A stretch of 35,510 nt of DNA from an uncultured Bacteroidales bacterium. GTDB lineage: Bacteria; Bacteroidota; Bacteroidia; Bacteroidales; UBA932. Positions 9,357 through 25,358 of this stretch are shown here, one piece after another. The stretch spans positions 1-35,510 of the forward strand of contig CAJONI010000065.1 in assembly GCA_905235995.1 (NCBI GenBank), in the 5' to 3' direction. Position 1 is the stretch's first letter, and the number at the start of each line of letters is the position of its first letter. A program made the translations under genes and the position numbers. The notes below the pieces were generated by a model that was not told the DNA's origin, did not search any database, and saw only the letters and a list, made by a program, of their open reading frames with translations.

Positions 9357-9893
9357 ATGCATATGGGAGGTAAAAAATTCTTTTTTCCGCTGGCATTGGC
9401 GCTCATGACGGTCCTTTCGGGCTGCCAGGACAGGGCTCCCATCTCCAAAAAGGACATGGCTTCCCTCTTTGCAGGATTCTACACCACGGACGCCCGCATC
9501 GACGTGCTGCGCGAAGAGAACGCGCTGCCGTTCGGGGGTCTCGACTCGCTCCGGGTCTACCAGCCGCTGCTCGACAGCCTCGGCTACACCAACGTCCAGT
9601 TCCGCGAGGCCATGAACTTCTACCTCTACCATCCGGAAGATATGGAAGACATCTTCGACAGGGTGCACGCCATCCTGCAGAAGGAGTACGAAACCGCCGA
9701 ACTTGCGGCCCGCCAGGAAGCACCCGGAAAGAAAGTCATCGATGCGCCCGCAGAACCTGAAAAGCTTGAAAGGCTGGAGAGTCCCGAGAAGCCGCTGAAG
9801 AAGGAGAAACCGGAGAAGCCCGAAACGGAGCGAGGCGGACGCAAACGCATGTCAAAGAAAGATTTGAAGAAGCTCGAGGAGGAGCTCAAATGA
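9357..9893 (+). CDS. DUF4296-family lipoprotein with Lys/Glu/Pro-rich tail
   Basis: A 178-residue lipoprotein starting at ATG 9357 (ATG 9363 is also possible). A frame-compatible TTG further upstream lies inside the promoter and is rejected. The signal peptide ends in LSGC, giving lipidated Cys23. The middle (about residues 30-105, KDMASLFAGFYTTDARIDVL onward to the KEYE helix) fits DUF4296, a helical Bacteroidota domain of unknown role. Residues about 120-178 form a charged low-complexity tail with EKP-type repeats (SPEKPLKKEKPEKPE) and a basic end, probably a linker that spans the periplasm or binds anionic polymer; this is inference. Its stop overlaps the deoC start by 4 bases, so it is the first gene of that operon. 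Confidence 0.82.
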   Translation: MHMGGKKFFFPLALALMTVLSGCQDRAPISKKDMASLFAGFYTTDARIDVLREENALPFGGLDSLRVYQPLLDSLGYTNVQFREAMNFYLYHPEDMEDIFDRVHAILQKEYETAELAARQEAPGKKVIDAPAEPEKLERLESPEKPLKKEKPEKPETERGGRKRMSKKDLKKLEEELK

Positions 9894-10702
9894 ATATGAA
9901 CATCCCGCAAGACAAACTCAAGTCCATCTACGGCTCGGTCTTGGGCCAGATCGACCTCACCTCGCTCAACAGCACCGACACCCCGACAAAGATCGCGGCC
10001 ATGACCGAAAAGGTCAACCGCTTCCATGATACCTTCCCGCAGTACCCCCTGCCTGCTTCCATCTGCGTGTATCCCAATTTCGCGAAGACGGTCGCAGATA
10101 CGCTCAAGGTGGAAGGTGTCCACGTGACCGTGGTGGGCGGCTGCTTCCCCGCGTCGCAGAGCACCCTGCCCGTGAAGCTGGCGGAGTGCACCGGAGCCGT
10201 GACCGACGGTGCCGACGAAGTGGACATAGTGCTTGCCCTCAATGCCTTCCTCGACGGGAACCATGCTGAAGCCTCTCGCGAAATCGAGGAGATAGGCGCT
10301 GCGATACGTGCCATAAAGCCCTCTGTGGTTCTGAAGGTGATACTCGAGACCGGCGCACTGACCTCTCCAAAGCTCATTGAAGAAGCCTCCTGCCTGGCCA
10401 TGGAGGCCGGAGCCGACTTCATCAAGACCTCTACCGGAAAGATGCAGCCCGCGGCTACGCCCGAGGCCGCACAGCTAATGTGCGACTGCATAAAGGCCTA
10501 CCACAGGAAGACCGGCCGGATGGTCGGCTTCAAGCCCGCCGGCGGCATCTCCACCCCCGAGGACGCCGTAACCTACTGGAACATAGTGGCCGACACCCTC
10601 GGCTCAGCCTGGCTCGACAAGCGCTGGTTCCGCTTCGGAGCCAGCCGCATGGCCAACAATCTTCTCTCCGCGCTGGAGGGCCGCGAAATCCGTTACTATT
10701 GA
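9890..10702 (+). CDS. deoC: Deoxyribose-phosphate aldolase
   Basis: A 270-residue class I aldolase with a TIM-barrel fold that splits 2-deoxyribose 5-phosphate into acetaldehyde and glyceraldehyde 3-phosphate in the cytoplasm, allowing deoxynucleosides to feed glycolysis. The Schiff-base lysine is Lys179 in DFIKTSTGK, and the second essential lysine is Lys215 in GFKPAGGIST. CVYPNFAKTV and VDIVLALNAFLDG are family motifs; the latter carries the Asp at the usual active-site position. Its ATG overlaps the preceding lipoprotein stop and the next gene starts one base after its stop, so it is well inside the operon. Together with the deaminase downstream it points to nucleoside breakdown as one task of the operon's front half. 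Confidence 0.96.
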   Translation: MNMNIPQDKLKSIYGSVLGQIDLTSLNSTDTPTKIAAMTEKVNRFHDTFPQYPLPASICVYPNFAKTVADTLKVEGVHVTVVGGCFPASQSTLPVKLAECTGAVTDGADEVDIVLALNAFLDGNHAEASREIEEIGAAIRAIKPSVVLKVILETGALTSPKLIEEASCLAMEAGADFIKTSTGKMQPAATPEAAQLMCDCIKAYHRKTGRMVGFKPAGGISTPEDAVTYWNIVADTLGSAWLDKRWFRFGASRMANNLLSALEGREIRYY

Positions 10703-10703
10703 T

Positions 10704-11894
10704 ATGGGAAGCATCCTCATAAAGGAGGTGCTGCTCAACGGGCGCACCACCGACATCCTCATAGACAACGGCCGCTTCAAGAGCCTCTGCGCAGCTGCGG
10801 GGACAAAGGCCGACCAGACGCTCGACGCCTCCGGGATGGCAATCCTGCCCCCCTTCTACAATACCCACACCCACGCGGCGATGAGCCTGCTGCGCGGCTA
10901 TGCCGACGACATGCCGCTGCAGAAATGGCTGAACGACTACATCTGGCCCTTCGAGAACGGCATGAAGGCTTCCGACATACGTGAAGGGAGCCGCCTGGCT
11001 GTCCGCGAGATGATAAAGACCGGCACGGTGTTCTTCTCCGACATGTATTTCGACATCGAGGAGACCATCGCCGTGGTGCAGGAATACGGCATACGCGCCG
11101 CCATCGGGGTGACTTTCGTGGAATCGCACTCCAAGTCCCAGCAGGAGGCCAAGCTCGACATGCTCCGCGGCTGGTCGGACCCCACCGGCGGCCTGGTGAC
11201 CCTGACTGTCGCGCCCCACGCCATCTACACCGTCGGCCCCGATCTTCTGGTACGCTGCGCGGAAACCGCCAGGGAACTGGGATTGAAACTCCACATCCAT
11301 CTCTCCGAGACCAGGCAGGAGGTCGACGACTGCAAGCGGGATCACGGCACTACGCCCGTCCGCTATCTCGACTCCCTGGGCTTCCTCGGCCCCGACGTCG
11401 TCGCGGCCCACGTGGTCCATGTGGACGAGGAAGAGGCCGCCATACTGGCTGAGAGGGGAGTGACCATCTCCCACTGCCCCTGCTCGAACATGAAGCTCGC
11501 CTCCGGGATTTTCCCCTACAAGCTCCTCCGCGAAGCCGGCTGCCGCATCACCCTCGGCACTGACGGCGACTCTTCGAACAACAATCTCGACATGCGCGAG
11601 GAGATGAAATTCGCAGCCCTGCTCGCCAAGGTGAGCAGCGGCGATCCCGAGACCATGCCCGCTGAGGAAGCGCTGGAGATGGCCTCGCGCAACGGCGCCG
11701 AGGCTTTCGGCATCGACGCAGGCGAGATAGCCGAAGGCAGGGAGGCTGACGCGCTGCTCGTGCGTCTCGACGACGAACGCATGCAGCCCCTCCACAACCT
11801 CGTGTCCAACTGGGTGTACTCCGCCGGCAGCAGCTGCATCGACACCGTCATCTGCCGAGGTCGCGTTATCATGCAAAACCGTACTCTGCGATGA
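10704..11894 (+). CDS. mtaD: 5-methylthioadenosine/S-adenosylhomocysteine deaminase
   Basis: A 396-residue amidohydrolase of the SAH/MTA deaminase group. Metal ligands are visible at the usual places: H55 and H57 in NTHTHAAMSLLRG, H199 in LHIHLSET with general acid Glu202, a His in AAHVVHVD, and D287 in LGTDGDSS. The segment GYADDMPLQKWLNDYIWPFE that follows the first His pair is characteristic of MTA/SAH deaminases rather than guanine or chlorohydrolases. It converts MTA or SAH to the inosine analogue plus ammonia, a recycling route for SAM by-products. It lies one base after deoC and its stop overlaps the start of the RelA/SpoT-like gene (ATGA). A role on another purine nucleoside cannot be excluded. 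Confidence 0.9.
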   Translation: MGSILIKEVLLNGRTTDILIDNGRFKSLCAAAGTKADQTLDASGMAILPPFYNTHTHAAMSLLRGYADDMPLQKWLNDYIWPFENGMKASDIREGSRLAVREMIKTGTVFFSDMYFDIEETIAVVQEYGIRAAIGVTFVESHSKSQQEAKLDMLRGWSDPTGGLVTLTVAPHAIYTVGPDLLVRCAETARELGLKLHIHLSETRQEVDDCKRDHGTTPVRYLDSLGFLGPDVVAAHVVHVDEEEAAILAERGVTISHCPCSNMKLASGIFPYKLLREAGCRITLGTDGDSSNNNLDMREEMKFAALLAKVSSGDPETMPAEEALEMASRNGAEAFGIDAGEIAEGREADALLVRLDDERMQPLHNLVSNWVYSAGSSCIDTVICRGRVIMQNRTLR

Positions 11895-12988
11895 AGGAAA
11901 GAATTGAAGATTACGGACTCGACCTCCACTGCACGATGATGCTGCAGGAGTACCGCGACCTCGTCCCGATGTTCTCGAAGATGAAGGCTGTGGTGCTCGA
12001 GCAGCTGAGCGGCTGCCTTCAGCGCGGCGGACTGATAGTCTCCGGCCTGGAGGCGCGTGTCAAGCAGGAGGAAAGCCTGGCCGGGAAACTGGAGCTCAAG
12101 GGCCGGAAATACCGCACCCTCAGCGACCTGACCGACATAGTCGGAGCCCGTATCATCACTTTCTACAGCGACGAGGTCGACAAGATCTCAGCCATCGTCA
12201 GCGACGTGTTCGAGGTCGACTGGGAGAACTCCGTCGACAAGCGCAGGCTTCTGGGTATCGACACCTTCGGCTACATGTCGCTCCACTACATCTGCCGCAT
12301 CCCCGAGTCGCTGTACTCCGATCCGGATTACCCCGAGCTCAACCAGTATCGCTTCGAGGTGCAGATGCGCACGACCCTGCAGCACGTCTGGGCCAACATG
12401 AACCACGACACCGGCTACAAGAGCGGTTTCGAGGTGCCTCCCGAATACATACGCAGCCTTAGCCGCCTGGCAGGCCTGCTGGAGCTGGCCGACGACGAGT
12501 TCAGCCGCATCCGCCACGACCTCACCGACTATCGGAGGAAGATGGAGCAGCTGGTCCGCGACGGCAGCTTCGACGAAGTGTCGCTCAACGCCGACACCTT
12601 CCGCAACTATCTGGCGCTCGACCCGTTCCATAAGCTCAACGAAATGATCGCGGCCATCAACCAGGCGGAAGTGCAGCCGATCAGCGGCATGCCTTACCTG
12701 GAGCCTCTGCGCCGCATGGGCCTCAAGACCCTCGGCGACGTGGAACGCATGCGCAAGGAATATACCCCGAAAGCCTATAAGCTGGCCCTGCACCAGATCA
12801 GCGGCACCGACCTCGACATCATAGCCTCCACCCTGGGCCTGCAGAACATCTGCCTGGTCTTTGCGGCGGAGAAGGGCGGGGAGATGGGGGTGGTACGCTT
12901 CCTCAACGCCCTCAACGGCGAGTCGAAGTACAATGTGGACTCCGCACGACGGATCTATCAGCAGATTTGTAAGATACACGATATGTAA
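11891..12988 (+). CDS. RelA/SpoT synthetase-domain protein (single-domain alarmone synthetase-like)
   Basis: A 365-residue protein whose N-terminal half is a RelA/SpoT nucleotidyl-transfer domain and which lacks the HD hydrolase, TGS and ACT domains. The ATP-binding pattern R56-x-K58-x3-S62-x3-K66 is intact, followed by D79/D82 and R87 (LTDIVGARII), a GYMSLHY motif, the catalytic E156 in FEVQMRT, and WANMNHDTGYK. In the last motif the Glu usually preceding His is Asn171, a possible change in substrate handling. The C-terminal 165 residues are helical and unfamiliar, with an LEPLRRMGLKTLGDVERM segment resembling a helix-hairpin-helix. It may make (p)ppGpp or a related pyrophosphorylated product, or act as a toxic small alarmone synthetase; neither is shown. 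It starts inside the deaminase stop and is followed after two bases by an APH-like kinase. Confidence 0.83.
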   Translation: MKERIEDYGLDLHCTMMLQEYRDLVPMFSKMKAVVLEQLSGCLQRGGLIVSGLEARVKQEESLAGKLELKGRKYRTLSDLTDIVGARIITFYSDEVDKISAIVSDVFEVDWENSVDKRRLLGIDTFGYMSLHYICRIPESLYSDPDYPELNQYRFEVQMRTTLQHVWANMNHDTGYKSGFEVPPEYIRSLSRLAGLLELADDEFSRIRHDLTDYRRKMEQLVRDGSFDEVSLNADTFRNYLALDPFHKLNEMIAAINQAEVQPISGMPYLEPLRRMGLKTLGDVERMRKEYTPKAYKLALHQISGTDLDIIASTLGLQNICLVFAAEKGGEMGVVRFLNALNGESKYNVDSARRIYQQICKIHDM

Positions 12989-12990
12989 CC

Positions 12991-13866
12991 ATGGAGAACA
13001 ACGTCAATAATCCTTTCGGAGACCTGAAACCCGAACTTGTAGACATGGCCGACTACACCGTAAGCGGTGACGGCTACACGGCCATAAGTTATGAACACAA
13101 GGACGGAAGGCGCATGATGAAGCTCTACGCTCCCTATATGCCCCCTTCCGTGCCCATACAGGAGTTGAATCTGGCGAGGTCCATCGAGGCTCTCGGCCTC
13201 AGGGTTCCCAAGGCCATACGTCTGGTGACCGACGGCGAACGCCTGGGAGTGGAATTCGAGCGCATAGTGGGCAAGCGCTCCTTCGCCCGCGCCATCTCCC
13301 AGGAACCGGAGATGCTCGAAGTGCTTACCGCGAGGTTCGCCAAGGCGTGCCTGAAGCTGCACAGCCTTCCCTGCGACACCCAGATCTTCCATTCGGCCAA
13401 AGCTCATTTCAGGAAGATGGTGGAGGTGTCGAAGGACCTGAGCGACGATGAAAGGGCTCGTTTCCTGGCCTTCGTCGACGCTGTCCCCGATATTACGACC
13501 TGCCTGCACGGAGACATGCACATAGGCAACATCATCACTTCCGGAGGAGTTGACTATTGGATCGACCTGGCGGACTTCCGCTACGGCGACCCCCGGTTCG
13601 ACCTGGGAATGCTCTATTTCGTGTGCGTATGGAATGAGAACGAGGACATCAGCGACCGTGTCTTCCACCTCAGTCACGCACAGATGCTCAGGGTGTGGGA
13701 CGTCTTCGTGAAGAATTATTACGGCCCCGACGCCGACCGGGCTGCGGTCGACGATTCGATCAGGCCCTTCGCAGCCCTTTACATGGTACATTTCAGCAAC
13801 CGGGAACCTATGATGCCCGAAATGCGTAAATTTATAGACAACTGTTTTTCATCATCACTGTTATGA
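12991..13866 (+). CDS. Aminoglycoside-phosphotransferase-fold kinase (TIGR02172-like)
   Basis: A 291-residue protein with the APH/choline-kinase fold. The catalytic loop CLHGDMHIGN has Asp175 and Asn180, and the metal-binding aspartates are D192 and D195 in WIDLADF, followed by the GDPRFDLGML helix usual in these kinases. The N-lobe begins with a short strand-rich region (YTVSGDGYTAISYEHK) and a lysine in MMKLYAP as candidate ATP anchor. It resembles the Bacteroidota/Fibrobacter paralogous family TIGR02172. The substrate is unknown: small molecules, sugars and proteins are all known in the fold. Nothing indicates antibiotic resistance. It starts two bases after the RelA/SpoT-like gene and overlaps the RsbW-like gene by 4 bases, so it is translated with the partner-switch genes. 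Confidence 0.82.
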   Translation: MENNVNNPFGDLKPELVDMADYTVSGDGYTAISYEHKDGRRMMKLYAPYMPPSVPIQELNLARSIEALGLRVPKAIRLVTDGERLGVEFERIVGKRSFARAISQEPEMLEVLTARFAKACLKLHSLPCDTQIFHSAKAHFRKMVEVSKDLSDDERARFLAFVDAVPDITTCLHGDMHIGNIITSGGVDYWIDLADFRYGDPRFDLGMLYFVCVWNENEDISDRVFHLSHAQMLRVWDVFVKNYYGPDADRAAVDDSIRPFAALYMVHFSNREPMMPEMRKFIDNCFSSSLL

Positions 13867-14267
13867 ACAAGAGATTTGACCCCATCATCGACAAATGCGG
13901 TGAGATCATCGACTTCCTTATGGCCTCTCCTGACATGCCGAAAGACGAGGACCTTCAATTCAAGATCCGCCTCTCGGTAGAGGAGGCGGTAGAGAACGTG
14001 GTTCGTTATGCCTATGAAGGAGGCATGGGCTGGATGGAAGTCGGCACTGAGCTCGACCCTGAAGGCGTGATGCTTACCATCGTGCTCCGCGATGCCGGCG
14101 TGCCGTTCAATCCGCTCGAAAAAGCCGACCCCGACATCACTGCTTCCCTGGAGGAACGGCAGATCGGCGGTCTGGGGATATTCCTCTGCAAGCAGTTGAT
14201 GGACCATATCGAATACAAATATGAGGATGGATGCAACGTCCTCACTATGAAAAAGATCGTGGCATGA
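13863..14267 (+). CDS. RsbW-like ATP-binding protein (GHKL, anti-sigma-factor type)
   Basis: A 134-residue stand-alone GHKL ATPase of the HATPase_c_2 type. The N-box is E41-x3-N45 in EEAVENVVRYAY, the G1 box has D77 in LRDAGVPFNP, and GGLGIFLCKQLMD forms the G2 glycine loop. RsbW and SpoIIAB have this layout and phosphorylate a Ser in a STAS partner, while in their free state they hold a target protein. The STAS partner here is probably the gene at 17128 and the phosphatase is at 15205. No sigma factor gene is present nearby, so the held target is unknown. Translation is coupled on both sides by ATGA overlaps. Confidence 0.88.
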   Translation: MNKRFDPIIDKCGEIIDFLMASPDMPKDEDLQFKIRLSVEEAVENVVRYAYEGGMGWMEVGTELDPEGVMLTIVLRDAGVPFNPLEKADPDITASLEERQIGGLGIFLCKQLMDHIEYKYEDGCNVLTMKKIVA

Positions 14268-15208
14268 GGACGCGTATCTCCATTGTCCTGCTGCTGCTTC
14301 TGGTCTTGCCGGCCCGTGCCCAGGTGGTGACATTCATGCCCCATTGGGTTCCCCAGACCCAGTTTGCGGGCTACTACGTCGCACTGGAGAAGGGTTACTA
14401 CGATGAGGAAGGCCTCACGGTGGTCCTCGACCACTTCGGCGGCAACTCTTCCGAGACCTCGGTGGGCAAGCTGGCGACCGGACAGGTAGACATAGTGACC
14501 AGCCAGCTGGTGACGGCCATGGTGAGCCGCGACGCCGGCCTTCCCATGGTCAACGTGCTCCAGACCTCACAGACCAACGGTCTGATGTGCGCCGCACACT
14601 TCCCTCTCTCCAACCCGGCGGCCCTGGAAGGCCGCAAGGTGGGCCGTTGGAAAGTGGGCTACGGTGAGATCTGCGATGTGTTCTGCTACAAGAACGACCT
14701 GCATGTAAACTGGATTCCTTATATCCAGGGAATCAACCTCTTCGTTTCGGGTGCCGTCGACGCCCTGCTCTGCTACAGCTACAGCGAGTTCATCCAGCTG
14801 GAGCTTGCTACGGGCGGTATCCCCCGCGAAAATGTGATCCGCTTCGCCGACGTAGGCCTGAACTACCCTGAGGACGGACTCTACGTGACCGAGAAATACT
14901 ACAACGAGAACCGGGAGACGGTCGAGAAGTTCGTGCGTGCCTCCCGCCGCGGCTGGGAATACGCCCATGAGCATAAGGAAGAAGCCCTTGCCATCTCCAT
15001 GCGTTTCATCCAGGATTTCCGGGTCATGACCAACATAACGCTCCAGCGGCGCATGCTCGACGAAGTCCTTCGCCTGCAGATCAACCCTGCTACGGGGAAG
15101 GCCGATTTCGCCCCGGTGGACGAGGCACGTTTCCGCGACCTCGGCCGCACCCTCCTGGAATCCGGGTGCCTGAAGCATGAACCTGACTACAAAAAGTTGA
15201 TACGATGA
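14264..15208 (+). CDS. NMT1/THI5-like periplasmic binding protein without transporter partners
   Basis: A 314-residue exported protein starting at the ATG that overlaps the preceding stop (the longer upstream frame runs through the ATPase gene and is rejected). The signal peptide MRTRISIVLLLLLVLPARAQ ends in an AxA-type cleavage site. The mature N-terminus, with VPQTQFAGYYVALEKGYYDE, is the hallmark of the NMT1/THI5/SsuA family of ABC-type binding proteins, which bind pyrimidine precursors, alkanesulfonates, taurine and similar compounds. LATGQVDIVTSQLVTAM and YNENRETVEKFVRAS are further family segments. No permease or ATPase gene is near; the gene is instead wedged between the RsbW-like ATPase and the sensor phosphatase with 4-base overlaps. 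It may therefore be a ligand sensor that talks to the phosphatase's periplasmic dCache domain. The ligand is unknown. Confidence 0.86.
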   Translation: MRTRISIVLLLLLVLPARAQVVTFMPHWVPQTQFAGYYVALEKGYYDEEGLTVVLDHFGGNSSETSVGKLATGQVDIVTSQLVTAMVSRDAGLPMVNVLQTSQTNGLMCAAHFPLSNPAALEGRKVGRWKVGYGEICDVFCYKNDLHVNWIPYIQGINLFVSGAVDALLCYSYSEFIQLELATGGIPRENVIRFADVGLNYPEDGLYVTEKYYNENRETVEKFVRASRRGWEYAHEHKEEALAISMRFIQDFRVMTNITLQRRMLDEVLRLQINPATGKADFAPVDEARFRDLGRTLLESGCLKHEPDYKKLIR

Positions 15209-17103
15209 GCATCAAGACAAAATTCTCATCCAGGCTAAGTCTCTACATAGTTGGCTTCTCGGCCTTGTTGCTTATCGCCGTCATGCTGCTCTACGGCATG
15301 TTTGCAAGGAGCGCCATACAGAACGAGGCACAGGAGAACACCGAAAAGGTGCTTGACAATACCATTCTCGAGATAGAGAAGGTGATCACTGAAGTGGAGC
15401 GGGCTGTCGACAATGTGGACTGGCTGGTCATGCGCAACCTCGGTGACGAGAAATTCCTGTACGAGATCACCCGTGAGGTGGTGCTCGCCAACCCCAATAT
15501 CATAGGCAGCGCCATAGCCTTCGAACCCGGCTACTACAAGGGCAAACCATATTTCGCCCCTTACACCTTCACCAACGCGGAGACCGGGACCACCCGATCC
15601 TTCCAGATGGGAAGCGAGCAGTACGACTATCCGGTCCTCGACTGGTACCAGATTCCCAAGCTGCTCGACAGGCCCTACTGGAGCGAGCCGTATTTTGATG
15701 AAGGCGGTGGCTTCCAGCGCATGTCCACTTACTCCATGCCGCTCAGGGATGCCGAAGGACGGTTCGTCGGAGTCATCACCGCCGACATATCCCTGGAGTG
15801 GCTGTCCCACAAGGTGGCCACGCTCAAGCCTTATGAGCACTCATACACGATGCTCATAGGCCGCAACGGCACCTATATCGCCCATCCCGACAGCTCGAAG
15901 GTGCTCAACGAGACCATATTTTCCGGGCAGATGATCTCAATGGACGAACAGGCCATTGCCCAGGCCCGCGACATGCTCTCAGGCGGCAGGAACTTCATCT
16001 CCTACAAATATCAGGGCCAGGGCAGGTTCACCCTCTACGGACCGCTCAGCAACGGCTGGTGCCTTGCCATGATGTGCTTCTACTCCGACCTCTACAAGGT
16101 CCTGTCGATCATGAACTGGATCATGCTCTCAATACTTATATTAGGTATGACCGTCCTCTTCCTTGGCAGCCGCAGGATCATACGCTATGAGACCAAGCCC
16201 ATAGAGGATTTCAGCAGGGCGGCACTGTCGATAGCAGGAGGTGATTTCCAGACACATATACCGGAGGTCAAGACGGAAGACGAATTGCGCGACCTGAGAG
16301 ATTCACTGTCCTTCATGGTCCGTTCCATCAACGACTACATGGAAAGGCTCAAGAGCACCACTGCTGCCAAGGAGCGATACGAGAGTGAGCTGGGCATCGC
16401 CAGAGACATTCAGATGTCCCTGCTGCCCACCGACTTCCCCCAGATCGAAGGACTGCAGCTATGCGCCCTGGTCCATCCTGCCCGCGAAGTCGGCGGCGAT
16501 CTCTACGACTTCCACATCAACGACAATACGCTCTACTTCGCAGTGGGCGACGTGTCGGGCAAGGGGGTTCCCGCCTCCCTGTTCATGGCCATAACCCGTG
16601 CTGCGTTGCGTTTCGTAGGTGCCATGGGCATGAATATGGCGGATGTCATGTCGCGAGTCAACGACACTCTGTGCGACGGCAACGACGCGGAACTTTTCGT
16701 CACGCTTTTCATAGCCAGGCTCAACCTTGAGACAGGGGAGATGACCTATTGCAACGCGGGCCACAATCCTATCGTCCTGCTTCCTCCCGACGGCAAGGCC
16801 GAATTCCTGCATGCCAGGCCGAACCTGGCCGCAGGCCTGTTCCCGGGCTTCCCTTATCAGGAAGAGAGCATCACCATCACCCCCGGAACCAGCCTCTGTC
16901 TCTACACCGACGGCGTCACCGAGGCAGAGCGTGACGACAAGCGGCAATACGGTGAGGAGAGGCTCCTGGAATGGATGTCATCACAGCCCGGGGACCGCAG
17001 CTCCGCGGCGTTGGTCGCGAGCCTGCTCGAGTCGCTGACAGCCTTCACCGAGGGCGCCGAACAGAACGACGATATAACCATCATGACAATACGTTGGAAA
17101 TAA
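15205..17103 (+). CDS. Membrane sensor phosphatase: dCache-HAMP-SpoIIE (PPM)
   Basis: A 632-residue inner-membrane protein. Membrane helix 1 is at about residues 12-34 and helix 2 at about 299-321. Between them lies a periplasmic double-Cache sensor, recognisable by the DWYQIPKLLDRPYWSEPYFD segment and the repeat of VGVITADISLEWL. A HAMP linker and coiled coil follow (about 322-400), then a SpoIIE/RsbU-type PP2C domain (about 420-632). Metal-binding aspartates are intact: D432 in GGDLYDF, D449 in GDVSGKG, D569 in YTDGVTEAE and D622/D623 in QNDDITIM. It should dephosphorylate the STAS protein encoded 24 bases downstream when its sensor is engaged. The overlap with the binding-protein gene suggests both act in one signalling pathway. 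Confidence 0.93.
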   Translation: MSIKTKFSSRLSLYIVGFSALLLIAVMLLYGMFARSAIQNEAQENTEKVLDNTILEIEKVITEVERAVDNVDWLVMRNLGDEKFLYEITREVVLANPNIIGSAIAFEPGYYKGKPYFAPYTFTNAETGTTRSFQMGSEQYDYPVLDWYQIPKLLDRPYWSEPYFDEGGGFQRMSTYSMPLRDAEGRFVGVITADISLEWLSHKVATLKPYEHSYTMLIGRNGTYIAHPDSSKVLNETIFSGQMISMDEQAIAQARDMLSGGRNFISYKYQGQGRFTLYGPLSNGWCLAMMCFYSDLYKVLSIMNWIMLSILILGMTVLFLGSRRIIRYETKPIEDFSRAALSIAGGDFQTHIPEVKTEDELRDLRDSLSFMVRSINDYMERLKSTTAAKERYESELGIARDIQMSLLPTDFPQIEGLQLCALVHPAREVGGDLYDFHINDNTLYFAVGDVSGKGVPASLFMAITRAALRFVGAMGMNMADVMSRVNDTLCDGNDAELFVTLFIARLNLETGEMTYCNAGHNPIVLLPPDGKAEFLHARPNLAAGLFPGFPYQEESITITPGTSLCLYTDGVTEAERDDKRQYGEERLLEWMSSQPGDRSSAALVASLLESLTAFTEGAEQNDDITIMTIRWK

Positions 17104-17127
17104 TAATAACATAATCATTAAGCTACC

Positions 17128-17430
17128 ATGAACGTAACTATCAATGAAGAGGGTTCCAAGGCCCTCGTGACCCTTGAAGGTCGTCTCGACACCACCAATG
17201 CCGATCAGTTCCAGAAGGACATCACTCCGCTGATGACCGGCTCACACCAGGAAATCGATGTCGACTGCACCGGCATGGAATACACCAGCAGTCAGGGCCT
17301 TCGCATGTTCCTCATGCTCCAGAAGACCGTATCGGCCCGCGGTGCGAAGCTTGTGCTCAAGAACATGAAGCCCCAGGTGAAGGAAGTGTTCGACATCACA
17401 GGCTTTTCGCACATCATTACCATAGTGTGA
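17128..17430 (+). CDS. STAS-domain anti-sigma-factor-antagonist-like protein
   Basis: A 100-residue single STAS domain, the normal size for RsbV and SpoIIAA. The TNADQFQKDI segment and the IDVDCTGMEYTSSQGLRMFL core are typical; Ser55 in YTSSQGLR sits where the phosphorylated serine lies in RsbV/SpoIIAA. It should cycle between a phosphorylated form made by the RsbW-like ATPase (13863) and an unphosphorylated form produced by the SpoIIE phosphatase (15205), and in the latter form capture the ATPase. An alternative is that it binds another kinase or regulates a transport protein. It follows the phosphatase after 24 A/T-rich bases and closes the run. Confidence 0.9.
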   Translation: MNVTINEEGSKALVTLEGRLDTTNADQFQKDITPLMTGSHQEIDVDCTGMEYTSSQGLRMFLMLQKTVSARGAKLVLKNMKPQVKEVFDITGFSHIITIV

Positions 17431-17454: not shown

Positions 17455-17494
17455 TCTTGTTGGCAAAGTGTTGATAAAGTTTTTTTGCCAGGGC

Positions 17495-17525
17495 ATTGTT
17501 TTTTGCAAAGCTTGCCATATATTTG
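17495..17525 (+). promoter_or_regulatory. uraA promoter (-33 ATTG, -7 TATATTTG)
   Basis: ATTG at 17495-17498 and TATATTTG at 17518-17525 are 19 bases apart, matching the Bacteroidetes promoter layout. The -7 box ends 14 bases before the ATG at 17540, giving a short leader. TTGCCA motifs at 17485-17490 and 17512-17517 and the inverted TGGCAA at 17461-17466 flank it and may bind a regulator. Confidence 0.65.
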
Positions 17526-17539
17526 CGAAAAAATTTTCT

Positions 17540-18931
17540 ATGTCCAAATCCATCAACAACCAAGCCATCTACGACGCCCGTACGCTCGGCAAACCCAAAA
17601 TGACGTTGCTCGGTCTCCAGCATCTCTTCGCGATGTTCGGGGCAACGGTCCTGGTTCCCGTGATTACAGGGTTGTCGGTATCGGCAACCCTTCTTTTTGC
17701 CGGTATGGGAACCCTTCTGTTCCACCTCCTCACCAAATGGAAGGTACCTGCCTTCCTGGGTTCCTCCTTCGCATTCCTCGGCGGTTACGCCGCGGTGGTC
17801 CAGGTGGGCACCGAACAGGGTCTCACTGTTGCTGAATCGCTTCCTTACGCCTGCATAGGCGTGGCATGCGCAGGTCTGATGTATTTCGTGCTTGCCGGTC
17901 TCTTCGCTGCCTACGGCCCCAAGAAGGTCATGAGGTTCTTCCCTCCGGTGGTCACCGGCCCCATCATCATCGCCATCGGCCTTACGCTCTCCGGCTCCGC
18001 CATCGCCAACTGCAACACGAACTGGTGGATAGCCCTGCTGGCCATCGCCATCATCGTCGTGTGCAACATCTGGGGCAAGGGCATGGTCAGGATCGTCCCC
18101 ATCCTCATGGGTGTGCTGGGCTCCTACATCGTGGCGGCCTGCTTCGGCCTGTGCGATTTCAGCGGCGTGAAGGAAGCATCCTGGCTTGGAACTCCGTTCC
18201 ATATGCAGGACACGGCTTTCGCTGTCGTAAAGAACCCCAACTGGGGCCTCGTAGTGGCGGCCATCATCGCCATCCTGCCCATCTCGCTGGCAACGATGGT
18301 CGAGCATATCGGCGACATGTGCGCCATCTCCTCGACCACCGGCGAGAACTATCTTGAGGATCCGGGCCTGCACCGTACCCTGATGGGCGACGGCTGCGCC
18401 ACCATCCTGGCTTCGCTCTTCGGTGCCCCCGCCAACACCACCTACGGCGAGAACACCGGCGTGCTCAACCTCACCCGCGTCTTCGACCCCCGCGTGATCC
18501 GTCTGGCCGCCATCTTCGCCGTCCTGCTGAGCTTCTGCCCGAAGTTCGCCGCGCTGATCGGCGCGATGCCCGCCGCCACCATCGGAGGCGTCAGCCTGGT
18601 ACTCTACGGTATGATCTCCGCCGTGGGTGTGCGAAACCTCGTGGACAACAAGGTCGACCTCACGATTTCCCGCAACCTCATCATCGCTGCCCTCATCCTT
18701 GTGCTGGCCATCGGTATCAAGTACGGCGCCAATGACTCGATTTCCATCGGCTTCAGCTCGCTCAGCGGCCTGGCCGTCGCGGCTCTCGTGGGCATCGTCC
18801 TCAACGCGATCCTCCCTGGCAAGGACTACGAATTCGGCTCGAACCTACGCGGCGACATCACCGTCAACCTGGGCGGTTCTACCCGCAACCCCAACTGGCG
18901 CGAGGAGCATCCCGAGCATGCCAAACTTTAA
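17540..18931 (+). CDS. uraA: Uracil permease (NCS2 family, UraA type)
   Basis: A 463-residue inner-membrane nucleobase:cation symporter. The frame extends upstream to 17468, but the ATG at 17540 is chosen because the promoter -7 box lies at 17518-17525 and MSKSINNQAIYDARTLGKPK is a natural N-terminus. The TTYGENTGVLNLTRVFDP segment, with Glu304, is the substrate-binding signature of uracil permeases; xanthine/uric-acid NCS2 members have a Gln-containing motif instead. About 14 membrane segments are expected, as in UraA. It should import uracil with protons. It stands alone behind its own promoter, but a DUF5020 outer-membrane protein and a purine permease follow, making a nucleobase uptake block. 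Confidence 0.92.
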   Translation: MSKSINNQAIYDARTLGKPKMTLLGLQHLFAMFGATVLVPVITGLSVSATLLFAGMGTLLFHLLTKWKVPAFLGSSFAFLGGYAAVVQVGTEQGLTVAESLPYACIGVACAGLMYFVLAGLFAAYGPKKVMRFFPPVVTGPIIIAIGLTLSGSAIANCNTNWWIALLAIAIIVVCNIWGKGMVRIVPILMGVLGSYIVAACFGLCDFSGVKEASWLGTPFHMQDTAFAVVKNPNWGLVVAAIIAILPISLATMVEHIGDMCAISSTTGENYLEDPGLHRTLMGDGCATILASLFGAPANTTYGENTGVLNLTRVFDPRVIRLAAIFAVLLSFCPKFAALIGAMPAATIGGVSLVLYGMISAVGVRNLVDNKVDLTISRNLIIAALILVLAIGIKYGANDSISIGFSSLSGLAVAALVGIVLNAILPGKDYEFGSNLRGDITVNLGGSTRNPNWREEHPEHAKL

Positions 18932-18973
18932 CCCAAGCAACCATTTAACCCAAAACATAATCTTTCACAATCC

Positions 18974-19699
18974 ATGAAAAAGAAACTCTTTGTCGCACTG
19001 CTGCTCTGCACCGTAGCTTTCACTACGGCCAACGCTCAGACCAACATCCAGGTTTTCTACGATTTCGGCAAGGACCGCCAGCAGATCACCACGACCATTG
19101 AAGGTTTCTATACCGACAAGGGCGGTAACACTTTCTTCTTCGTCGACCACGACTTCGCACTGAAGAAATCAATGGGGGACACCCAGTCTCCTGCCGGCAC
19201 CTATATGGAAGTCGCACGCTGCCTCAACTTCTGGCAGAACAGCCCCGTGTCGTTCCTCAGCGCCCACGTTGAGTACAATGGCGGTGCATATAAGGGATAT
19301 GGCATCAACCACGCATTCCTGGCCGGTGCCGACTTTTTCCTTCACAGCAAGGACTATCGCAACACCCTCAACCTGAAGGTGCTGTATAAAGGTATCCTGA
19401 AGACGGCCCAGAGAGTGCCCATGCAGTTCACGGCCGTGTGGGGCCTGCAGGACATCTTCGGCGCGAAAGGCCTCCGCTTCAGTGGTTTCGCTGATTTCTG
19501 GTGGGAAGATCACGTGGTGACCGGCAAGGATATGTCCGCTTCGCTGTCGCACGTCGTATTCCTCTCCGAACCGCAGCTCTGGTACGATTGCGGTACCGAG
19601 CACTTCAATATCGGCGGCGAGGTTGAACTCAGCTACGATTTCGGCACGACCCGCGGTTTCCGCGCCCGTCCCTGCCTCGGTGTCAAGTGGGTCTTCTAA
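18974..19699 (+). CDS. DUF5020-family Tsx-like outer-membrane protein
   Basis: A 241-residue exported protein with a cleavable signal peptide (MKKKLFVALLLCTVAFTTANA). The mature part is made of alternating beta strands and ends in an aromatic strand (LGVKWVF), as in small outer-membrane barrels. The opening IQVFYDFGKDRQQITTTIEG and the GGNTFFFVDHDF segment fit DUF5020, which is related to the nucleoside channel Tsx. Placement between a uracil permease (42 bases upstream) and a purine permease (11 bases downstream) supports a role letting nucleosides or bases cross the outer membrane. The channel function is inferred from family and context. No clear promoter of its own is seen. Confidence 0.85.
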   Translation: MKKKLFVALLLCTVAFTTANAQTNIQVFYDFGKDRQQITTTIEGFYTDKGGNTFFFVDHDFALKKSMGDTQSPAGTYMEVARCLNFWQNSPVSFLSAHVEYNGGAYKGYGINHAFLAGADFFLHSKDYRNTLNLKVLYKGILKTAQRVPMQFTAVWGLQDIFGAKGLRFSGFADFWWEDHVVTGKDMSASLSHVVFLSEPQLWYDCGTEHFNIGGEVELSYDFGTTRGFRARPCLGVKWVF

Positions 19700-19710
19700 A
19701 AGACTGATGC

Positions 19711-21033
19711 ATGGCTGGTTTCCTCACTAAGGCTTTCGGCTTCAATCCGGAGAAACATGCCGTCCGGACCGAGTTGGTGGCGGGTCTGACGACCTTCCTC
19801 ACGATGGCCTACATCCTGGCCGTCAACCCGGCTATCTTCAGCGCGCTTCCGGGCATGCCCGGAGGCAGCGTTTTCACTGCGACCGCCCTTGCTGCCATCA
19901 TCGCTACGCTGGTGATGGCATTCTGGGCCAAGAAGCCTTTGGCGCTGGCGCCGGGCATGGGCCTGAATGCGTTCTTCGTCTACACGGTCTGCCTGACGAT
20001 GGGCCATACCTGGCAGTTCGCCCTGACGGCGGTGCTCATCGAGGGCCTGATTTTCGTAGTACTTACGCTCACCAGGGTGCGCACATGGATACTTGACGCC
20101 ATTCCCCTGAGCCTCAAGAATGCCATAGGCGCCGGCATAGGCCTGTTCATCGCCTTCATCGGCCTGCAGCATGCGGGCCTGGTGGTGGGCAGCGAAGCTA
20201 CGCTGGTGACCCTCGGTGACGTGACCAAGGGTACCGCGCTGCTCTCCGTGATAGGCATGGTGATCAGCTGCACGCTGGTGATGCTCCATGTCCGTGGCGG
20301 TATCCTCATCGGTATCCTCGCCACTGCCGTCATCGGCATGTTCATCAAGGATCCCGCGACAGGGGAGGCCATCACGCACTTCAACGGCATCATGGCCATG
20401 CCCGACAGCCTGGCTCCCACCGCTTTCCAGTTCGAGTGGCACAGAATCTTCAGCTGGGACATGCTGATAGTCGTGTTCACCTTCCTGTTCATCGACATTT
20501 TCGATACCATGGGAACGGTGATAGGCACGGCCCAGAAAGCCGGCTTCGTAGATGAGAAAGGCCACATCCAGGACGCAGAGAAGGTGTTCATGGCCGACGC
20601 CATCGGCACCATCGCCGGCGCCTGCATGGGTACCTCCACCACCACGACCTATGTCGAGAGCTCGGCGGGTGTGGGCGCCGGCGGACGCACCGGCCTGACG
20701 GCATTCGCCGTCGCGGCCTGCTTCGCCCTTGCGCTCTTCTTCTCGCCCTTGTTCCTCGCCATCCCCGGTGCCGCCACGGCTCCGTCGCTGATCATCGTCG
20801 GCATGATGATGATGCAGCCGGTCACGAGGATCGACTGGACCAACTACCGCGAGAGCATCCCCGCCTTCCTGACACTGATCATGATGCCGCTGACCTACAG
20901 CATCAGCGACGGCATCCTGATCGGCGTGATCTCCTACGTAGTACTCTACGCCCTTACCGGCAAGGCGAAGGAAATCAGTCCCACGATGTGGGTCCTCGCC
21001 GTGCTGTTTGTCCTGAGGTATATATTTGTATAA
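19711..21033 (+). CDS. Hypoxanthine/guanine/adenine permease (NCS2, AzgA type)
   Basis: A 440-residue inner-membrane protein of the AzgA/PbuG group. The start [20 protein letters not shown] and the motif [20 protein letters not shown] are diagnostic for this NCS2 subgroup, which imports purine bases with protons (hypoxanthine, guanine or adenine in characterised members). The exact base cannot be read from the sequence. It starts 11 bases after the DUF5020 gene and ends only 133 bases before purE. Its last codons contain the -7 box of the purine operon (21021-21028), so this coding end also serves as promoter DNA. Confidence 0.92.
21021..21028 (+). promoter_or_regulatory. -7 box of the purine operon, inside the permease gene end
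   Basis: TATATTTG is an exact TAnnTTTG match located within the last codons of the purine permease. Transcription would start near 21034, giving purE a leader of about 130 nt, far longer than the other leaders in this window. No clear -33 TTTG is seen at the expected spacing. Confidence 0.6.
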
Positions 21034-21047
21034 TAGTAACGATCATT

Positions 21048-21150
21048 CCGATCGGCGCGCTTGTGCGCAGCAGCGGGTGTTTTTCCGGGCCAAGGCCATT
21101 TTCTCAGGCCTTGGAACGGAAAAACAGAGCAGCGGAGCACAAGCCGTCGG
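21048..21150 (+). promoter_or_regulatory. Structured leader of the purine operon (candidate cis-regulatory RNA)
   Basis: Nested inverted repeats span nearly the whole purE leader. The inner hairpin has arms TGTTTTTCCG (21078-21087) and CGGAAAAACA (21117-21126), a 2x2 internal loop (GG/AA), arms CCAAGGCC (21090-21097) and GGCCTTGG (21107-21114), and a nine-base loop. An outer stem pairs GCTTGTGC (21059-21066) with GCACAAGC (21137-21144), and CCGA/TCGG (21048-21051/21147-21150) can extend it. Purine-rich AGCAGCGG copies face each other in the internal loop. No U-tract follows, so it is not a simple terminator. I do not recognise a known riboswitch class; the ZTP and PRPP consensus cores are not apparent. 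Confidence 0.55.
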
Positions 21151-21166
21151 CGTTAAAAGAAGAAAG

Positions 21167-21634
21167 ATGAAAGTCAGTGTCCTCATGGGGTCGAAGAGCG
21201 ACTGGGAGACGATGAAAGCCGCCTGCGAGACCCTCGAATCGTTTGGAGTCGGATATGAAAAGAAGGTGATCAGCGCACACCGCACCCCGCAGTATTTCAT
21301 GGAATACATGGCCGGCCTGCGCGACCGCGGCTTCGGCATCGTGATAGCCGGGGCAGGCGGAGCCGCCCATCTGCCCGGCATGGCCGCCGCCCTGACGACC
21401 CTGCCCGTGATAGGCATCCCCATCCGCAGCAAAGCGCTCGACGGCATGGATTCCCTGCTTTCCATCGTGCAGATGCCCAGCGGCATACCCGTGGCCACCA
21501 TGGCTATCGACGGTGCGAAGAACGCCGCTCTCTATGCCGTGGGCATACTCGCCCTGCAGGACTCCGCCCTTGCTGCAAAACTGGAAGCCTTCCGCAAGGA
21601 ACAGGCTGAAAAAGTGCTGAATACCGAATTTTAA
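21167..21634 (+). CDS. purE: N5-carboxyaminoimidazole ribonucleotide mutase (class I PurE)
   Basis: A 155-residue enzyme. The frame is open further upstream, but the ATG at 21167 is chosen since [14 protein letters not shown] is the conserved PurE N-terminus and the upstream part runs through the hairpin leader. GSKSDWE, ISAHRTP (with the catalytic His) and [11 protein letters not shown] are the class I signatures. It converts N5-CAIR to CAIR in de novo purine synthesis, forming an octamer in the cytoplasm. PurK, its usual partner, is not in the window. It is the first gene of purE-purL-purM-purN-purH-purD. Confidence 0.96.
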
Positions 21635-21644
21635 CCCATCGTCC

Positions 21645-24600
21645 ATGAGCCGTCGTCTCTTCGTCGAAAAGAAACCAGCCTTCCAGGTCGAGGCCGAAAG
21701 CCTCCGGAAGGACTTCAACGAGAATCTGGGCCTTAGCCTGCGTAAGCTCCGGCTGATCAATCTCTACGACCTGTCCGGCTTCAGCGATGAACTGCTGGAG
21801 AAATGCCGCTATACGGTCTTCGGAGAGAGAGTGTCCGACACGGTGAGCGACAGCTTCGAACCGGAGGGCTGCCGCTATCTGGCCGTGGAGTTTCTCCCGG
21901 GCCAGTTCGACCAGCGCGCCGCCTCCGCCCTGGACTGCGTTCACCTGGTCGACCCTGCAGCCGACGTGACCATCCACAGCGGCAGGCTGCTTGTTTTCGA
22001 CGACGACTTCTCCGACGAGGGGATGGATGCAGTGCGCCGCTACTTTATCAACGCGGTTGAGGCGCGCGAAAAGGACCTCTCGGTGTATGCGGGCGGGGAA
22101 GATGCTTCCGTGCGTCCTCTCGCCTCGCTCGAAGGCTTCATCGAGATGCAGGAAAGCGAACTGGCTCCTTTTTGCAAAGAATGGGGCCTGGCCATGAATG
22201 CCGACGACCTCCGCGAGGTACTGCTGCATTTCCGCAGTGAGGGCCGCAACCCCACCGAAACCGAGCTCCGCATCCTCGACACCTATTGGAGCGACCACTG
22301 CCGCCACACCACCTTCACTACCGAGCTGACCGCGATCAGCGTGGAGGATTCCTTCATCAAGCCGGCCCTGGAAGCCGGCCTGCGGCAGTTCGAGGCCATC
22401 CGCCACGAGCTGGGGCGCGACCATAAACCTCTATGCCTCATGGAACTGGCCACAATCGGCGCCCGCTACCTGAAGCACAAGGGCGTGCTGGACAACCAGG
22501 AGGATAGCGAAGAGAACAACGCCTGCAGCATAGTGATCGACGTGGACGTCGACGGGAAGCCCGAGAAGTGGCTGCTGCAGCTCAAGAACGAGACCCACAA
22601 CCATCCCACCGAGATCGAGCCGTTCGGCGGCGCCGCGACCTGCCTCGGCGGGGCCATACGCGACCCGCTCTCCGGCCGTGCCTATGTCTACCAGGCCATG
22701 CGGGTGACCGGTGCGGGCGACATCTGGAAACCTGTCGACGAGACCCTCCCCGGGAAGCTGCCGCAGAGGGTCATCAGCCGCAAGGCCGCTGCGGGCTATT
22801 CGAGCTACGGCAACCAGATAGGCCTGGCCACGACCCATGTGCGCGAGATTTTCCACGAGGGCTACACTGCCAAGAGGATGGAGGTCGGTGCGGTGGTGGG
22901 CGCAGTCCCTGCCGCGCAGGTGACGCGCGAGCGCCCTGCACCGGGCGACGTGATACTGCTGCTCGGCGGACGCACTGGCCGCGATGGCATAGGAGGCGCA
23001 ACCGGCTCATCCAAGGGACATACCGGGGCTTCGCTGACCACCTGCGGCAGCGAGGTGCAGAAGGGCAACGCTCCCGAAGAGCGCAAGCTCCAGCGGCTGT
23101 TCCGCCGTCCCGAGGTCTCGAAACTTATCAAGAAGTCCAACGACTTCGGCGCCGGCGGCGTGAGCGTGGCCATAGGCGAGCTGGCCGACGGCCTGGAGAT
23201 TCATCTCGACCGCGTGCCCGTGAAATATGCGGGCCTTAACGCCATGGAGCTCTCCATCAGCGAGTCGCAGGAACGCATGGCGGTGGTCATCGCGGCAGCC
23301 GACCTCGCCGCGTTCGAGCGCTTCTGCGCCGAAGAAAACATCGAGGTTAACCATGTGGCCGACGTGACCGACACGGGGCGCATGCAGATATACAACGGAG
23401 CGCAGCTGGTGGCCGACCTGCCCCGCAGCTTCATCGACAGCGCCGGGGCCCGGCATTTCGCCCAGGCAGCCATCCTGCCGGTTGAAGACCGCGACCCGTT
23501 CGGCATCGCAGTGGAAGGCTCCACTCTGCAGGAGCGGCTCGAATCGCTGCTCGCTTCGCCCAACGTCACTTCGCAGAAGGGCCTGATAGAGATGTTCGAC
23601 TCCACCATCGGCAGTTCCACGGTGCTGATGCCCTTCGGCGGCCGTTGGCAGGACACAGAGTCGCAGGTTTCCGTTCAGAAACTGCCCGTGTCGGGCGAGA
23701 CCGACACCGCCAGCATGATGGCTTTCGGCTACAACCCCGACCTGGCTACCTGGAGCCCGTACCATGCAGCGGCCTACGCCGTGGTTGAGGCCTGCACCAA
23801 GGTTGCGGCCGCCGGCGGAGACTGGTCCGCCATGCGTTTCTCCTACCAGGAATACTTCGAACGCATGACTGCCGACCCGCATACCTGGGGCAAGCCGCTG
23901 TCGGCCCTGCTGGGCGCCTTGCGCATGCAGACGGCGCTCGGCCTGCCTTCTATAGGCGGCAAGGACTCGATGAGCGGTACCTTCGAACAGATCCACGTGC
24001 CGCCGACGCTGATCGCCTTCGGCATCACTCCGGTAAAAGCGTCGAGGGTCATCTCGCCCGAGTTCAAGCAAAAGGGCCACCGCATCTACCTGCTGCGGCA
24101 CAAGCCGCTGGCTGACCGCATGCCCGATACCGATGCACTGAAACAACTCTGGAGCTATGTCCACGAACAGATCGGGGCCGGCCACATCGTGGCGGCCTGG
24201 GCGGTGGGTTTCGGCGGCGTAGGGGAGGCCCTCTCCAAGATGGCCTTCGGCAACCGCTTCGGCTTCGACGTGCAACTGCCTGAAGCTGAGCTCTTCCGCC
24301 TAGGTTACGGCTCTCTCGTCGTTGAGGCGACGGAAGAGCTGAAGGATCCTTGTGCGCTGCTGCTCGGCACTGTGACCGACGGCGATGTCGTGCTCAACGG
24401 CGTGCAGATGTCGCTCGCATCCCTGCGCAAAGCCTGCTTCGCCCGCTTCGCTGAAATCTACCCCGAGCGGACCCCGTTCCCCGCTCATCCCGTGCCGGAT
24501 TTCGCGGATGTTTTCTCCCGCAATGACGCGCCCGTTTATCCGGGTGACGCCATCGGGCAGCCGCTCGTGCTGCTGCCGGTCTTCCCCGGCACCAACTGCG

Positions 24601-25358
24601 ACTACGACACCGCCTCGGCTTTCCGTCGCGCCGGTGCCCGCACCCGTTTCCTGGTGTTCCGCAACCTCACTGAACAGGACGTGCTCGACTCCATAGACGC
24701 GCTCTGCCGCGGCCTGGCCGAGTGCCAGATCCTCGCCCTCTCGGGCGGCTTCTCCTCTGGAGACGAACCGGACGGAAGCGGCAAGTTCATCGCCAATGTG
24801 CTCGGTAACCCGAAGGTCGCCGCGCAGCTGCAGGCGCTGCTCGCCCGCAAGGGTCTCATCCTTGGCATCTGCAACGGTTTCCAGGCCCTGGTCAAGAGCG
24901 GCCTGCTGCCCGACGGCAAGCTGGGCGTGACGGCCACCGATCCCACGCTCTTCCGCAACGATATCAACCGGCATGTGTCACAGCTGGTTACGACGGTCGT
25001 CTCTTCGACACGCTCGCCGTGGCTCGCGGGCTTCCAGGCGGGCGAACTCCACACCGTGGCCGTGAGCCATGGCGAAGGCAAGTTCGTGGTCAGTCCCGAG
25101 CAGGCCAGGCATCTCTTCGCCAACGGCCAGGTGGCCTTCCGCTATGCCGATCCCGCGACGGGCGAACCTACGATGGAATCGCCCTGCAATCCCAACGGCT
25201 CTTCCTATGCCATCGAGGGCATCGTCAGCCCCGATGGCCTCGTCCTTGGCAAGATGGGCCACTCAGAGCGGCGAGGTGCCGACCTCTACCGCAACATTCC
25301 CTCGCAGGTGGGCGAATCGATCTTTGAAAATGCAGTGAATTACTTCAGAAAGAAATAG
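21645..25358 (+). CDS. purL: Phosphoribosylformylglycinamidine synthase, large form
   Basis: A 1237-residue single-chain FGAM synthase with its own glutaminase. The N-terminal domain begins [13 protein letters not shown], as in the clade found mainly in Clostridia and streptococci. The synthase half includes [20 protein letters not shown] (ATP/FGAR site) and [18 protein letters not shown]. The C-terminal class I glutamine amidotransferase (about residues 965-1237) has the nucleophile Cys1076 in GICNGFQ and the His1206/Glu1208 pair in KMGHSERR. It converts FGAR, glutamine and ATP to FGAM. It follows purE by 10 bases and precedes purM by 2. The protein is intact, without frameshift. Its type differs from the PurL I recall from Bacteroides. 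Confidence 0.96.

Follow-up and report, generated by a model that had tools for sequence, protein, structure and literature searches.

What does a partner switch control in a bacterium whose group lacks a sigma-B factor? The question is raised by a stretch of 35,510 nucleotides (the window; contig CAJONI010000065.1, here C65) from the genome of an uncultured Bacteroidales bacterium (GCA_905235995.1; 1.96 Mb in 78 contigs, 88% complete), since the Bacteroidales are such a group. Genes for an RsbW-like kinase, a SpoIIE-type phosphatase and a STAS protein lie there in a block of six with genes for a RelA/SpoT-type synthetase, an APH-fold kinase and a binding protein. A sequence-only reading had proposed that this switch is coupled to the synthetase or the kinase in place of a sigma factor. 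Judged by gene neighbourhoods in its relatives, the block belongs to a conserved module of gut and rumen Bacteroidales. The interpretation developed below, to which we give an even chance, is a partner switch gated by a dCache sensor, with alarmone turnover rather than a sigma factor as its output.

Among 295 genomes drawn evenly from the order, a synthetase search (match threshold 1e-8) returned 11 matches. Seven of these, own genome included, are at least 54% identical and were taken as orthologs; the other four are 29-34% identical, with no other module profile hit in 14-20 kilobases (kb). From at least 570 relatives found in a scan of GTDB contigs, the best 80 were retained; the named ones among them are mostly Bacteroidales or Bacteroidia metagenome-assembled genomes (MAGs), many from rumen and horse gut. 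Linkage was counted within 10 kb at 57 non-redundant loci, out of 83, where the synthetase has 5 kb or more on each side. The near-duplicates L015, L038, L060 and L063 were left out; a count of 58 of 84 loci differs in that L015 is kept. Nearly all loci are metagenome-assembled, and their genes are longest open reading frames (ORFs) with profile hits, so that starts are approximate.

At least one switch part lies within 10 kb of the synthetase at 52 of the 57 loci. All three parts are present at 41 loci, two at nine, one at two and none at five; counted by part, STAS is found at 52, RsbW at 50, an HD hydrolase at 47, APH at 44, PP2C at 41 and the NMT1-type binding protein at 6. No STAS, RsbW, PP2C or APH hit was obtained at any of 12 loci encoding other RelA_SpoT-domain proteins in the same seven genomes, some of these control stretches being cut by contig ends with less than 9 kb on one side (52/57 vs 0/12, Fisher p 7e-10, a value that ignores shared descent). 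The same four profiles gave no hit beside 12 of 12 distant RelA-like homologs, four in the order and eight outside it; the latter, from a set of 395 genomes in the phylum, occur on their own. Apart from module genes, no gene family occurs at more than nine of the 57 loci. The RsbW profile is found in 135/295 genomes of the order, including all seven with the synthetase (chance 0.004, ignoring kinship). Switch and synthetase thus stay together in relatives, and the picture that would have spoken against the sequence-only reading, RelA-like and kinase genes never beside the switch, was looked for and is not what these loci present.

The synthetase scores 58.1 bits against PF04607 RelA_SpoT (cut-off 27; Pfam scores are given here with curated cut-offs), and its sequence profile matches RelP/RelQ-type structures in the PDB (GTP pyrophosphokinases, 60.6-64.9 bits). 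Its AlphaFold model (83 rows; predicted local distance difference test score, pLDDT, 90.1; predicted template-modelling score, pTM, 0.71) matches Bacillus SAS1 (5dec_A; E 1.5e-8, template-modelling score by target 0.85) and also SAS2/RelP. Residues R56, K58, D82, Y128, E156, Q158 and R160, which we take to be active-site motif residues, are invariant (83 rows, two incomplete). With a RelA_SpoT fold, these residues, and no HD or TGS domain in the same chain, the protein would be of the small alarmone synthetase kind, with (p)ppGpp as its predicted product. Its C-terminal domain of about 145 residues, modelled alone (pLDDT 93.7, pTM 0.89), is modelled confidently but finds no sequence match in the PDB up to E 1, no structural match there by Foldseek at E 0.001 (best E 1.7) and no Pfam match above cut-off. 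A profile of this domain, scanned over 15 RelA-like proteins, matched two that had gone into it, the window protein and the L017 ortholog, and did not detect the domain in the other 13. Because it is not detected in the unlinked RelA-like proteins scanned, the domain is a natural docking candidate for the switch.

A core part of the module escaped the earlier gene list because it lies on another contig in the window genome (C3, 22492-23067). This is a MESH1-type alarmone hydrolase (HD_4 by Pfam on three examples), the HD hydrolase counted above, which very often adjoins the synthetase (median gap 5 bases). In the PDB it comes close to small alarmone hydrolases and MESH1. The residues of its HD and ED motifs, whose customary roles are assumed, are invariant (34 rows). 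A stringent search found hydrolase orthologs in 7/295 genomes of the order, and these are precisely the seven in which the synthetase occurs. This co-occurrence, even where the genes are unlinked, is the strongest evidence that the two proteins may work as a pair. The APH-fold kinase scores 50.6 bits with Pfam APH (cut-off 23.2) and 242.4 with TIGR02172 (cut-off 228.2), a family for which our literature search found no paper; H173, G174, D175, N180 and D192 are each kept in 58/59 sequences.

The switch proteins are conserved as well. The RsbW-like protein (HATPase_c_2, 79 bits, cut-off 27.4) has RsbW 6m36 as its best PDB sequence match, and residues E40-E41, N45, D77, G79, G102-G103 and G105 are invariant (70 rows). 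The sensor phosphatase matches SpoIIE, HAMP and dCache_1 (169.1/25, 33.6/25 and 71.8/45 bits/cut-off), and its PP2C aspartates D432, D449, D569, D622 and D623 are kept in 59/59; the functions of these RsbW and PP2C residues are presumed from their families. The STAS protein (PF01740, 63.7 bits, cut-off 22.6) is closest by profile to SpoIIAA/RsbV structures, with one STAS structure of unnamed function scoring slightly higher. Its S54-S55 are invariant (73 rows). S55 aligns with the serine after Asp in SpoIIAA and RsbV, which we take to be their phosphoserine, and the position of that Asp is Ser in all 73 rows. The intact N, G1 and G2 boxes, the metal aspartates and the switch serine described in the sequence-only reading are therefore all recovered, as are its six ORFs, joined exactly by 4-base overlaps or gaps of 2-24 bases. 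The binding protein was rejected as a fixed member of the module, NMT1 matching at just 6/57 loci. With PP2C metal aspartates, HATPase_c_2 boxes and the STAS switch serine present, all three RsbU/W/V-type proteins are present, and phosphorylation-dependent partner exchange is predicted. No relative of the RsbW protein was found in viral contigs.

The module varies in its make-up. Gene order differs between loci, and HD+APH, PP2C+RsbW (RsbW fused to the phosphatase in one lineage) and DAGK+RsbW fusions occur. In six close relatives (L022-L024, L026-L028) the RsbW domain follows some 300 extra N-terminal residues, which are DAGK_cat and YegS_C in L023 (by Pfam; the other five by length), and a DAGK-type cluster lies near the synthetase at 9/57 loci, suggesting a further lipid-kinase-like part. 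DAGK/YegS-type genes also stand beside the module at L045 (2508-3416, Pfam) and L051 (8977-9978, by clustering). Trees of the switch (84 loci; RsbW, STAS and PP2C) and of the synthetase (83 loci) conflict at L092, where the synthetase is nested (support 0.956-0.995) among loci sharing one switch kind while its switch falls (0.925) with five triads of loci that lack the synthetase. This disagreement suggests that the L092 switch was replaced in place. The mirror-tree correlation (r 0.64, reached by 0/500 permutations) is confounded by shared descent and was not used as proof.

In the alarmone reading, a ligand outside the cell would bind the dCache domain (some loci carry a periplasmic binding protein) and set the activity of the SpoIIE phosphatase. 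The phosphatase would dephosphorylate STAS, which the RsbW-like kinase would rephosphorylate. STAS or RsbW would then engage the synthetase through its C-terminal domain and change its activity, the partner being more likely unphosphorylated STAS, by analogy with SiaC, HsbA and BgrV, and otherwise free RsbW. The MESH1-type hydrolase would remove the product, and the APH-fold kinase may be a co-regulated second output or a modifier. We infer the binding, the direction of control, the nucleotide product and the role of the kinase; physical control is read from the conserved neighbourhood because three published STAS-type systems control a diguanylate cyclase. Candidates for the direct target are the synthetase, the hydrolase and the kinase. 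A narrower version, which we put forward tentatively and at less than an even chance, places a stringent-response enzyme that is split into synthetase and MESH1-type hydrolase under a direct phospho-switch, STAS or RsbW docking on the unmatched C-terminal domain and the extracellular ligand setting the alarmone level. If alarmones are indeed the output, many gut and rumen Bacteroidales would possess a second alarmone circuit, gated by a signal; alarmones would join sigma factors and cyclic di-GMP (c-di-GMP) among the known outputs of partner switching; and an output would have been found for one class of PP2C-RsbW-STAS sets, which are common in this group without sigma-B. No paper treating partner switching and an alarmone synthetase as parts of a single circuit was found in a search that left subscription papers and preprints mostly outside.

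Several observations weigh against the alarmone reading. The RsbW profile occurs in 128 genomes of the order without the synthetase, and 8 of 11 RsbW loci fetched from such genomes hold all three switch parts; on this comparison the switch serves other outputs too and is not, as a rule, reserved for alarmones. No switch part lies within 10 kb at five of the 57 loci (L014, L034, L054, L057 and L066), the L014 genome having a triad elsewhere (L104), and L014 and a few others keep the C-terminal domain with no adjacent switch. The best 80 of at least 570 loci are also the most similar, so that the remaining loci may show looser linkage. A further possible partner is indicated by the DAGK-RsbW fusions, and the sole fusion of a switch part to a possible output enzyme of the module, STAS-APH in one genome (L107), points to the kinase and not to the synthetase. 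Lastly, the swap at L092 was seen once, in a single MAG, and L103, L104 and L105, three of its five partner triads, come from genomes with the synthetase elsewhere. The proposal that the switch is coupled to an alarmone synthetase in place of a sigma factor thus stands in part: linkage is kept through reordering, fusions and one apparent replacement of the switch, but the switch serves other outputs too.

Four other explanations were weighed. That the APH-fold kinase is the direct target of STAS or RsbW, the alarmone pair being a co-regulated neighbour responding to the same stress, seems rather unlikely to us, even though APH is present at 44/57 loci, its gene overlaps that of RsbW by 4 bases in the window, and a natural STAS-APH fusion (L107:11745-12995, G229) adjoins a dCache-PP2C-RsbW fusion in a genome that lacks the synthetase. 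That fusion was seen in 1/295 genomes, APH is absent at 13/57 loci and on the other strand in several, and APH has paralogs, the APH part of the fusion query having matched three own-genome places outside the window. Within the module, moreover, the fusion partner of APH is the hydrolase (the 84 loci hold 24 HD+APH ORFs), a link to alarmone chemistry. It is also unlikely, in our judgement, that the triad controls an unlinked process, such as a transporter or the cell surface, with the alarmone genes as passengers sharing its operon and stress signal. The breadth of RsbW (135/295 genomes, 7 of those with the synthetase) would agree with this, as would the varied neighbours of RsbW loci that lack the synthetase, namely NMT1 (by profile) and histidine kinases, permeases, ATP-binding cassette (ABC) transporters and a nonribosomal peptide synthetase (NRPS; by eye). 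Passengers would hardly account, however, for a linkage kept through reshuffling, fusions and an apparent switch replacement, for control loci devoid of switch parts, or for the rarity of non-module families around the synthetase.

Two further explanations fare worse. Toxic small alarmone synthetases (toxSAS) with hydrolase antitoxins are known, and a toxin-antitoxin or phage-defence unit, in which a toxic synthetase is checked by the hydrolase and triggered by the switch, would suit the presence of both orthologs in the same 7/295 genomes. Toxic synthetases are often accompanied by hydrolases, according to one abstract, and the PADLOC candidate PDC-S33 matches the synthetase (2.8e-14, residues 53-168). 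This match spans only the shared synthetase domain, the other five proteins having no PADLOC hit, and defence is accordingly a weak candidate. The hydrolase is unlinked in the window genome, though within 10 kb at 47/57 loci, and the synthetase is closest to the RelP/RelQ type (CapRel scoring 18.7 bits), so that we regard such a unit as very unlikely. Least probable of all is a classical switch acting on an unlinked sigma factor, be it an extracytoplasmic function (ECF) factor or RpoD, for which the profile similarity of RsbW and STAS to RsbW/RsbV and SpoIIAB/SpoIIAA would speak. A single Sigma70_r3 protein, expected to be the housekeeping factor, is present in the window genome, which is 88% complete, and one or two are found in six relatives (two of the six have two). 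No sigma or transcription factor was recognised by eye among families at five or more of the 57 loci (module genes being identified by profile). A dedicated sigma factor was rejected on these grounds, and the claim that the switch has none, including any cognate sigma-B/F-type factor, is supported within the limits of the Sigma70_r3 search and the recurrent neighbours, ECF factors lying outside both.

The layout of the block to which the alarmone reading applies is given in Table 1.

Table 1. Features of the six-gene block, in positions of the window
Feature	Positions	Strand	Junction with next gene	Remarks
Small alarmone synthetase-like protein (relA-like gene), 365 aa	11891-12988	+	gap of 2 bases	N-terminal RelA_SpoT, Pfam match at residues 56-179
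C-terminal domain of the synthetase (residues 217-365), mainly helical	12539-12985	+		candidate docking/regulatory domain
APH-fold kinase, TIGR02172 family	12991-13866	+	4-base overlap	HGD...N and D motif kept
RsbW-like serine kinase (HATPase_c_2)	13863-14267	+	4-base overlap	N, G1 and G2 boxes (Pfam, alignment)
NMT1/THI5-type binding protein, optional member	14264-15208	+	4-base overlap	PF09084, 116.5 bits (cut-off 20.5)
dCache-HAMP-SpoIIE (PP2C) sensor phosphatase	15205-17103	+	gap of 24 bases	input, presumed STAS phosphatase
STAS antagonist protein	17128-17430	+		Ser55 codon 17290-17292; PF01740 and TIGR00377 above cut-off

The NMT1 ORF begins at 14231 if its first ATG is taken, and at the tabulated position if it is to overlap the RsbW-like gene by 4 bases. 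An amidohydrolase gene (10704-11894) overlaps the relA-like gene by 4 bases, and for this reason the operon probably starts further upstream. One terminator-like stem follows STAS, against 0.5 expected, which is about chance level. The surroundings of the block (9890-11894 and 17468-25358) hold DeoC, a deaminase-like amidohydrolase and Xan_ur_permease by Pfam and, by eye, a second permease and PurE- and PurL-like genes; the DeoC neighbour recurs at 7/57 loci. This purine context would fit alarmone control. Elsewhere in the same genome (C33:1-14500, L103), a second switch set comprises two convergent STAS genes, a PP2C and a dCache-PP2C-RsbW fusion, and adjoins a gene resembling NRPS by eye.

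Further genes were observed around the synthetase or the switch in relatives. At L014 and L054, a fused solute-binding and permease protein with an ABC ATPase stands beside the switch-less synthetase (Pfam for L054, by eye for L014), and a similar pair lies beside a lone RsbW at L112 (by eye), hinting at a shared input. A Y_phosphatase3-type gene is directly upstream of the synthetase at L029 (9164-9988, Pfam) and L045 (9155-9988); the family occurs at 9/57 loci, not always adjacent. STAS, synthetase, HD-APH and RsbW are arranged identically in two MAGs titled Akkermansia sp. (L032, L033); provided that the binning is correct, this would amount to a transfer into another phylum.

Among known proteins, the synthetase resembles RelP/RelQ in fold and motif residues. 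In Treponema denticola, a small alarmone synthetase also has a C-terminal domain and a hydrolase in the genome; the domain, of tetratricopeptide repeats (TPR), brakes synthesis (PMC10434055) and sets a precedent for a C-terminal brake. The domain described here has no solved-fold match, and a switch is not mentioned in the abstract of that account. In a 2011 survey of RelA/SpoT homologs, the 8 Bacteroidia genomes are entered with Rel and RshB and with a third mark not assignable to a column (PMC3153485). On the switch side, all three protein types of RsbU-RsbW-RsbV and SpoIIE-SpoIIAB-SpoIIAA are present with their active-site residues kept. The module differs in that no dedicated sigma-B/F-type factor was found for it within the searches above (sigma B is described in PMC10212131), and in that its RsbW is in many loci fused to a phosphatase or a DAGK/YegS-type domain.

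Closer in logic are three STAS-type proteins that act on a second-messenger synthetase, in the pairs SiaC-SiaD, HsbA-HsbD and BgrV-BgrR (PMC8457831). In HsbA-HsbD of P. aeruginosa and BgrSTUWV-BgrR of Sinorhizobium, the phosphorylation state of the STAS protein controls a diguanylate cyclase (PMC8457831, PMC5085249), the messenger being c-di-GMP there and a predicted alarmone here; HsbA also serves the anti-sigma factor FlgM (PMC5085249). In SiaABCD of P. aeruginosa, the SiaA phosphatase and SiaB kinase set the phosphorylation of SiaC, which controls a diguanylate cyclase (PMC8457831). The module likewise has a STAS-related protein, a phosphatase and a kinase, encoded beside a predicted nucleotide second-messenger synthetase, and SiaA is the best NCBIfam match of its phosphatase (66 bits over the HAMP-SpoIIE half, residues 307-630; cut-off 700). 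In place of the GGDEF output enzyme and the DUF1987 protein SiaC, it has RelA_SpoT and a SpoIIAA-type STAS protein with a serine, and its paired hydrolase and APH kinase are not mentioned for SiaABCD in the accessible text of PMC8457831. Should the split-enzyme version prove true, the module would be the alarmone counterpart of these STAS-controlled diguanylate cyclases.

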